A stretch of 9,960 bases of DNA. Origin: Nitrososphaerota archaeon (GTDB taxonomy: Archaea; Thermoproteota; Nitrososphaeria; Nitrososphaerales; UBA183). The stretch is from contig JAPCJM010000003.1 in NCBI GenBank assembly GCA_027886945.1, positions 1 through 9,960 on the forward strand, written 5' to 3'. The translations under genes were made by a program, and so were the position numbers. Positions 2,286-2,485 of this stretch are shown here, piece by piece. The notes beneath the pieces are model-generated. The model searched no databases, had not been told where the DNA came from, and saw only the letters and a program-made list of their open reading frames with translations. Positions within the stretch are counted from its first letter, which is position 1. Each line of letters opens with the position of its first letter.

Positions 2286-2485
2286 ATGCCGACCCACGGA
2301 AGTCAGCAGTCCCAGCTTAGCGCTGGCTGCCTTCAATCACAAAGGCCGGAAAAGTTCGCAGCCAGACCCCAAAATTAGAGGGTAAGCCAAAGAAGGGGAA
2401 GATACCCAAGGTCAGGAACAAGCGGACGTATGAGAAACGCTTTACTCTGAAGCGCAAGCCAGGCCAGAACTGGATGCGCCGGTGA
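2286..2485 (+). CDS. rps30e: 30S ribosomal protein S30e, gene interrupted by a putative 32-nt BHB intron
   Basis: S30e is a small, very basic protein of the 30S subunit. Exon 1 (2286..2304) encodes MPTHGS plus the first base of a Leu codon. Exon 2 (2337..2485) completes it: LTKAGKVRSQTPK, then a Lys/Arg-rich body with IPKVRNKRTYEKRF and the end PGQNWMRR, stop TGA at 2483-2485. Spliced, the protein is 55 aa, about normal for archaeal S30e, and joins exactly into the conserved GSLTKAGKVR. Unspliced, the frame from ATG 2286 ends at TAG 2376-2378 after 30 codons with no S30e likeness past residue 6, so a standard gene caller would probably miss this gene. A strong Shine-Dalgarno precedes the ATG. 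The stop overlaps the GTG start of elp3 (GTGA), pointing to one operon. S30e identity is very secure; splicing is inferred. Confidence 0.9.
2305..2336 (+). other. Putative 32-nt archaeal pre-mRNA intron with bulge-helix-bulge splice sites
   Basis: The exon-intron region folds into a bulge-helix-bulge. Exon 1 GAAG (2299-2302) pairs with intron-end CUUC (2331-2334) as the central 4-bp helix. On its inner side the 5' strand has a 3-nt bulge UCA (2303-2305); on its outer side the 3' strand has a 3-nt bulge AAU (2335-2337). Cutting each after the second base removes exactly 2305..2336. The intron's inner helix is GCAG (2306-2309) with CUGC (2327-2330), a 2-nt bulge (2310-2311), then CCAGC (2312-2316) with GCUGG (2322-2326) closing a 5-nt loop. 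Exon 1 pairing with the 3' end of the intron is the arrangement of archaeal pre-tRNA introns cut by EndA. The outer exon-exon helix is weak (only G2298-C2338 is clear), so the motif is of the relaxed type. Ligation would be by the tRNA ligase RtcB. Confidence 0.82.

Follow-up and report, generated by a model that had tools for sequence, protein, structure and literature searches.

Predicted bulge-helix-bulge introns in the ribosomal protein gene rps30e and in rnhB of soil Thaumarchaeota

Introduction

The closest described counterpart of the introns considered here is that of the cbf5 pre-mRNA in Desulfurococcales and Sulfolobales, which according to the part of PMC2738675 available to us has a relaxed bulge-helix-bulge (BHB) motif, shows lineage-specific losses and is predicted to be cut between the second and third residues of the bulge. 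The same part mentions predictions in other genes as well, citing a paper on the virus SIRV1 and a book chapter on Sulfolobus. Another BHB in an mRNA is that of HVO_1309 in Haloferax, which sits in the untranslated leader and is cut by the splicing endonuclease EndA; according to the available text of this report from 2020, archaeal BHB introns had, besides its own case, been reported from the cbf5 mRNA alone (PMC7714728). The BHB introns of archaeal tRNA and rRNA, as described in the accessible portions of PMC6379350, PMC4090602 and PMC12397907, have a motif identical to the one presented here and presumably depend on the same enzyme.

In the present work, we analysed a 32-nt insert in the gene for ribosomal protein S30e (rps30e), located in a window, i.e. 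the whole stretch of 9,960 nucleotides under study, in which all features mentioned below lie on the forward strand. We consider it very probable that positions 2305-2336 are a pre-mRNA intron of S30e, of which the BHB is cut by EndA and the exons are joined by RtcB. Like the cbf5 intron, it interrupts a protein-coding gene, has a relaxed BHB with the predicted cut at the corresponding place and varies between lineages. However, the present cases concern rps30e and rnhB in soil Thaumarchaeota, with up to two introns per gene, a 16-nt exon between them and introns down to 19 nt. In contrast to tRNA and rRNA introns, they are located in protein-coding genes, of which the product must also keep the reading frame, and in contrast to HVO_1309, the predicted cut joins coding sequence. 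Among open-licence PMC articles, screened by title and start of the abstract, no paper on an archaeal S30e or RNase HII intron was found with queries on terms other than RNase HII. As far as this search goes, the mechanism is of a known EndA kind, while the gene, the lineage, the number of sites, the 16-nt exon and the link to the start codon are new. Three more BHB intron sites in two genes, one of them encoding a ribosomal protein, are thereby added from a soil lineage in which their presence varies repeatedly among relatives, and this suggests that mRNA splicing in archaea extends beyond the single protein-coding gene for which it is well documented.

The rps30e locus in the window

The S30e start codon is an ATG at 2286, which is preceded by the ribosome-binding site GGAGGT (2268..2273), recognised by eye and resembling a G-rich site in aligned relatives. 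Further upstream, a TATA-like GATTAAAT at 2236..2243, likewise seen by eye, may serve as promoter. The straight reading frame comprises 30 residues before a stop and ends before elp3. Removal of 2305..2336 results in an S30e of 55 residues, MPTHGSLTKAGKVRSQTPK...GQNWMRR, with matches to Pfam PF04758 (E 1.5e-12) and to NCBIfam NF006817 (77.4 bits with a cut-off of 75, E 5.3e-22). According to the reading frame and the deletion analysis, exon 1 (2286..2304) encodes MPTHGS plus two bases of a Leu codon, and exon 2 (2337..2485), delimited by the Pfam and NCBIfam matches and the reading frame, includes the stop codon; the predicted spliced junction reads GGAAGTC immediately followed by TCACAAAG. 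The stop overlaps the GTG start of elp3 (2482..4077, assigned by Pfam) in the sequence GTGA at 2482-2485. Elp3 is a conserved downstream neighbour with a match at all 32 rps30e loci read, in G310 to its C-terminal part only. Because of this overlap, elp3 translation may depend on splicing. On the other side of rps30e, the window harbours a frameshifted gene at 1634-2231, which is a single 206-aa frame in locus L001; neither of its pieces has a Pfam match.

The BHB was defined by a strict rule, namely four central pairs, two 3-nt bulges, at least four inner pairs and a cut behind the second base in either bulge. In the window, GAAG in exon 1 (2299..2302) forms the 5' strand of the central helix and pairs with CUUC in the intron (2331..2334), the latter assigned by the rule and by covariation. 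The 5' bulge UCA (2303..2305) has its predicted cut after 2304 and the 3' bulge AAU (2335..2337) after 2336, while fold and covariation define the inner stem-loop GCAG..CCAGC/GCUGG..CUGC at 2306..2330. The original prediction had given exactly these coordinates for both bulges together with the helix GAAG/CUUC, and had claimed that deleting 2305..2336 restores S30e. Indeed, out of 2699 tested deletions of 10-60 nt, this is the sole one that restores PTHGSLTKAGKV..QTPK, and it is identical to the BHB-predicted cut, so that the predicted cleavage in both bulges, judged by sequence only, restores the protein. Within the first 150 nt there are two strict BHBs with a span of up to 60, one of which is the restoring BHB, and a strict BHB with a protein-restoring cut arose likewise in 9 of 20000 shuffled inserts.

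In the most probable reading, the rps30e pre-mRNA would fold into a BHB in which exon GAAG pairs with intron CUUC and a 3-nt bulge follows each strand. EndA, probably of the (alpha beta)2 type, would cleave after the second base of each bulge and RtcB would ligate the exons, whereby a CUC Leu codon would arise across the junction and the S30e frame would continue as far as its stop, which overlaps with the start of elp3. S30e and then elp3 would be translated from the joined mRNA. A group I or II self-splicing intron is far longer than 32 nt, and no Rfam family at all was matched in the window at gathering score.

Distribution of rps30e introns among relatives

Relatives of the window were found via Elp3, which led to five loci in the metagenome-assembled genomes (MAGs) SubAcS15-57, REEA66, clean1925, YP1.bin45 and JOPF216, and in all five rps30e is split at the site of the window. 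The original prediction had proposed to look for a second intact rps30e, and in the five nearest genomes (G001-G005) one single match per genome was obtained (E up to 10). SubAcS15-57 is taken as a member of the Gagatemarchaeaceae, since it is placed in a genome table of PMC10640624, a paper on this family, above the rows of another group; its first column there states 94.7, which we take as completeness, and the main text of this paper does not contain the words "intron" and "splic".

The family of SubAcS15-57 comprises 46 genomes, 31 of which have an rps30e match. Intron 1, at the site of the window, occurs alone in 10 of these and together with a second intron in 6, i.e. the site is common to 16 of the 31 genomes; intron 2 alone is found in 11 and neither intron in 4. 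Related genes with and without the insert, for which a search had also been proposed, therefore both exist in the family. Including the window, which belongs to the set with intron 1 alone, 32 genes were read. Intron 1 has a length of 31-32 nt, with 46 nt in G377, whereas intron 2 is a BHB intron of 19-20 nt that lies within the Lys codon of GKV. Where both introns occur together, as in six genes, the middle exon is 16 nt long.

The assumption that rps30e is hidden in the 15 family genomes lacking a match was rejected, because 14 of them also lack elp3 and the locus is thus probably missing from those MAGs. Among them, a single weak Pfam match, in G223 (E 0.6), looked like chance on reading, and G323 has an additional weak rps30e-like match (33%, E 0.008). 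To look outside the family, we used a class sample of 400 genomes, 364 of them with an rps30e match; the 44 genes chosen for reading, picked among the better matches, are all unbroken. Intact S30e proteins with an M start are also present in the database. One of them, P0001, is 96% identical, unbroken and located on a contig of 1051 nt, and could be either a spliced transcript or derived from an intronless genome. The other two, P0005 and P0009, are unbroken as well and come with longest contigs of 1.83 Mb and 96 kb.

Geometry and covariation of the predicted BHB

Across the 28 split rps30e genes, window included, a strict BHB cut restores S30e in 27, with 1 to 6 candidate BHBs per gene. The sole exception is G227, where the third inner pair of intron 1 is mismatched, but the homologous cuts restore its protein. 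A central helix of 4 bp flanked by one 3-nt bulge on each strand was found in 27 of the 28 split rps30e genes and also in five rnhB genes, which harbour a third site (see below).

Pairs were counted in 15 distinct stretches per intron. For intron 2, all 160 cells are paired and double changes occur at 6 of 11 pairs (28 cells), and for intron 1, 94.9% of 195 cells are paired and 5 of 13 pairs show double changes (15 cells). Slid structures reached at most 58.8% (intron 2) and 52.3% (intron 1) pairing, and the covariation score was matched by none of 500 shuffles for either intron. Two of five covariation measures are weak for intron 2: 21 of 500 shuffles had as many doubly changed pairs, and 395 of 500 had as many further pair types. 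Within the central helices, the changes join synonymous exon bases, i.e. the Gly wobble position, with intron bases: in intron 1, Gly GGA/GGG covaries with U/C in the intron, with A-U and G-C in a ratio of 8:7 among 15 sequences, and in intron 2, Gly GGC/GGT/GGG covaries with G/C. These compensatory changes argue that the BHB pairing is selected. Regarding the outer helix, intron 2 has 3 bp that are paired in 100% of cells, whereas intron 1 possesses one G-C pair only, which makes it a relaxed BHB that departs from the canonical form.

Free-energy folds of single sequences are not special. A 65-nt piece of the window folds with the expected helix and stem, but its z is -0.77 and 43 of 200 shuffles fold equally well; in a 90-nt piece the inner stem forms and the GAAG/CUUC helix is absent. 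The BHB helix was obtained for 2 of 6 genes folded as 90-nt pieces (only L003 and L004) and for one of four intron-2 pieces (G002), i.e. lone-sequence folds often favour structures other than the BHB. Energy alone is therefore not persuasive, and the case rests on the comparison with relatives, in which the site recurs with its geometry and covariation. The relatives also answer the proposal to examine the region against a BHB model, since the pairs of the motif covary there, and they support the claimed functional mini-intron, for which this comparison makes intron status nearly certain.

That small errors or decay occur in this region is evident from the neighbouring frameshifted gene and could suggest that the split rps30e is a pseudogene or an assembly error as well. 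However, site, geometry and covariation are common to 16 family genomes besides the window, and G001-G005 have no second copy of the gene. Moreover, the 15 intron-1 genes differ from the window in the spliced frame by 88, 58 and 294 changes at codon positions 1, 2 and 3, respectively, and this excess at third positions indicates that the spliced frame is under protein-level selection. A pseudogene or error is thus very improbable.

An S30e with another N-terminus, made from a start within a retained hairpin, is similarly improbable. The database proteins P0012, P0014 and P0024, which resemble gene calls running from intron 1 into exon 2, would fit such a product, but no conserved start codon or ribosome site was seen on reading the inserts, and only part of the genes have a stop in the insert frame. 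Furthermore, intron 2 interrupts the gene again downstream, and exon 1 is retained with bases that covary with the insert.

Translational bypassing is known to feature a hairpin that separates two coding halves, and it could be argued from this resemblance that the insert is skipped by the ribosome. None of the 17 intron-1 genes and none of the 11 genes with intron 2 only has matched take-off and landing codons by which the protein would be rejoined, and what the two rps30e sites and the rnhB site have in common is BHB geometry and no bypass signal; hence, bypassing is hardly conceivable. The preferred reading remains a BHB intron, of which the cutting and joining in the cell, with EndA and RtcB as agents, we infer from the genomes.

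Splicing machinery

An EndA match (PF01974) is present in 21 of 22 genomes of relatives, and 16 of them have two or more. The original prediction had recommended checking the type of EndA, whose broad specificity has in Crenarchaea been linked to a loop, and relatives encode alpha- as well as beta-type genes. In 17 alignable rows of the alpha type, Tyr, His and Lys are kept in the motif DFAVYE.GPGIDHAPY..TTV[RK]KQF; we take these three residues to be catalytic. The beta type, without the His, accounts for 9 rows that belong to 8 genomes. Altogether 7 genomes, including G202 from outside the family, yielded both types; typing used alignable rows, and two rows of G351 were left out. In the accessible part of PMC6379350, the (alpha beta)2 EndA is described to cut relaxed BHBs, and in archaeal EndA papers this is said of both (alpha beta)2 and epsilon2 enzymes. 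Thaumarchaeota are entered as having an alpha2beta2 EndA in the portion of PMC4090602 that was available.

RtcB was matched in 19 of 20 genomes of relatives. In four contigs (G002:C109, G246:C24, G318:C76 and G217:C36), the match consists of two pieces more than 1 kb apart within one open frame of 997 to 1108 aa, which makes it a candidate for an intein.

A third site in rnhB and scans for further split genes

The phenomenon is wider than first seen, as it includes a second site in rps30e, a third in rnhB (RNase HII) and repeated gain or loss. An rnhB match exists in 37 of the 46 family genomes, and in five of these (G174, G323, G310, G318 and G345; loci L165, L175, L215, L217 and L218) a BHB intron of 28-30 nt lies inside the DEAGRG motif. 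The remaining genes are unbroken in 30 cases, besides a partial match in G372 and a gene in G314 that is aberrant at its 5' end and was left out of the count. Again, the helix covaries with a wobble position, UGGG/CCCA versus CGGG/CCCG tracking Ala GCT/GCC, and a further pair exchange is GAGC/GCUC versus AAAC/GUUU. By eye, the 5' end of rnhB in L215, L218 and L175 has ATA or ACG and no in-frame ATG, GTG or TTG just before the conserved start region. The gene just upstream of rnhB differs, also by eye, between intron-bearing genomes and several intronless ones.

The cbf5 gene shows no break in the family, with a TruB_N match in 42 of 46 genomes and all listed matches in open frames of at least 329 aa. 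A first scan for split genes used ORFs of at least 70 aa from G002 (278 kb), G174 (120 kb), G004 (220 kb), G101 (120 kb) and G400 (60 kb), and also included the window, L001, L003 and L005; its six candidates were taken for shadow-frame artefacts. A rescue scan, in which truncated matches are repaired by a BHB cut, covered 406 pairs and uncovered rnhB of G174, while apparent rnhB rescues in G005 and G001 are artefacts, because VDEAGRG is unbroken there. When repeated on 1.2 Mb of five genomes with 766 truncated pairs, the scan recovered rps30e in G400, G174 and G004 as well as rnhB in G174, the gains ranging from 33 to 56. Other rows had gains of at most 31 and were not read singly, and rps30e of G002 was missed, which indicates a low sensitivity; that nothing beyond rps30e and rnhB stood out in these 1.2 Mb is therefore a weak negative. 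Genes split in this way are overlooked or shortened by gene callers.

Start codons, control and evolution

All 15 family genes without intron 1 have ACG at the start codon (L011-L014, L034, L037-L042, L086, L088, L094 and L099), whereas the 17 genes with intron 1, window included, start with ATG (11) or TTG (6). Of the 44 genes read outside the family, 2 have ACG at this position (L045 and L046). The ACG starts are mostly preceded by a G-rich ribosome site. A BHB intron that turns ACG into AUG was rejected as explanation, since none was found in the 15 ACG genes. On the elp3 tree, five of five independent contrasts agree with the link between ACG and absence of intron 1 (sign test 0.0625); exceptions probably exist, given the M starts of P0005 and P0009. 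The link could reflect joint inheritance of a block of promoter, start and intron or a common need for low S30e.

It is possible, though rather unlikely in our view, that rps30e splicing is a control point, with intron 1 and the weak ACG start as interchangeable brakes on S30e. As the frame terminates early when unspliced and the start of elp3 overlaps with the S30e stop, EndA and RtcB could then gate a ribosomal protein and a tRNA-modifying enzyme together. An alternative, in which EndA cuts the BHB mainly to destroy or control the message and ligation is inefficient, has a parallel in Haloferax, where the EndA cut in the 5'-UTR matters for HVO_1309 expression according to the available text of PMC7714728, and the ACG/intron-1 pattern hints at control, too. 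Nevertheless, cells are expected to need S30e, which the frame cannot yield unless spliced, and each cut restores the exact frame, which leaves this alternative with very little probability compared to productive splicing.

The elp3 tree of 32 genes requires 6 changes for intron 1 and 8 for intron 2, hence each of them was repeatedly lost or gained. A tree of 162 exon bases, which is weak with 12 of 27 forks open, needs only 2 changes for intron 1 and hints that rps30e alleles may move between lineages. With the natural alleles (none, intron 1, intron 2, both), it becomes possible to test directly how archaeal mRNA introns are gained, lost and used. As to the promoter box, GATTAAAT-like sequences tend to go with intron 1 and TATATA-like ones with the ACG genes, as seen by eye and uncounted.
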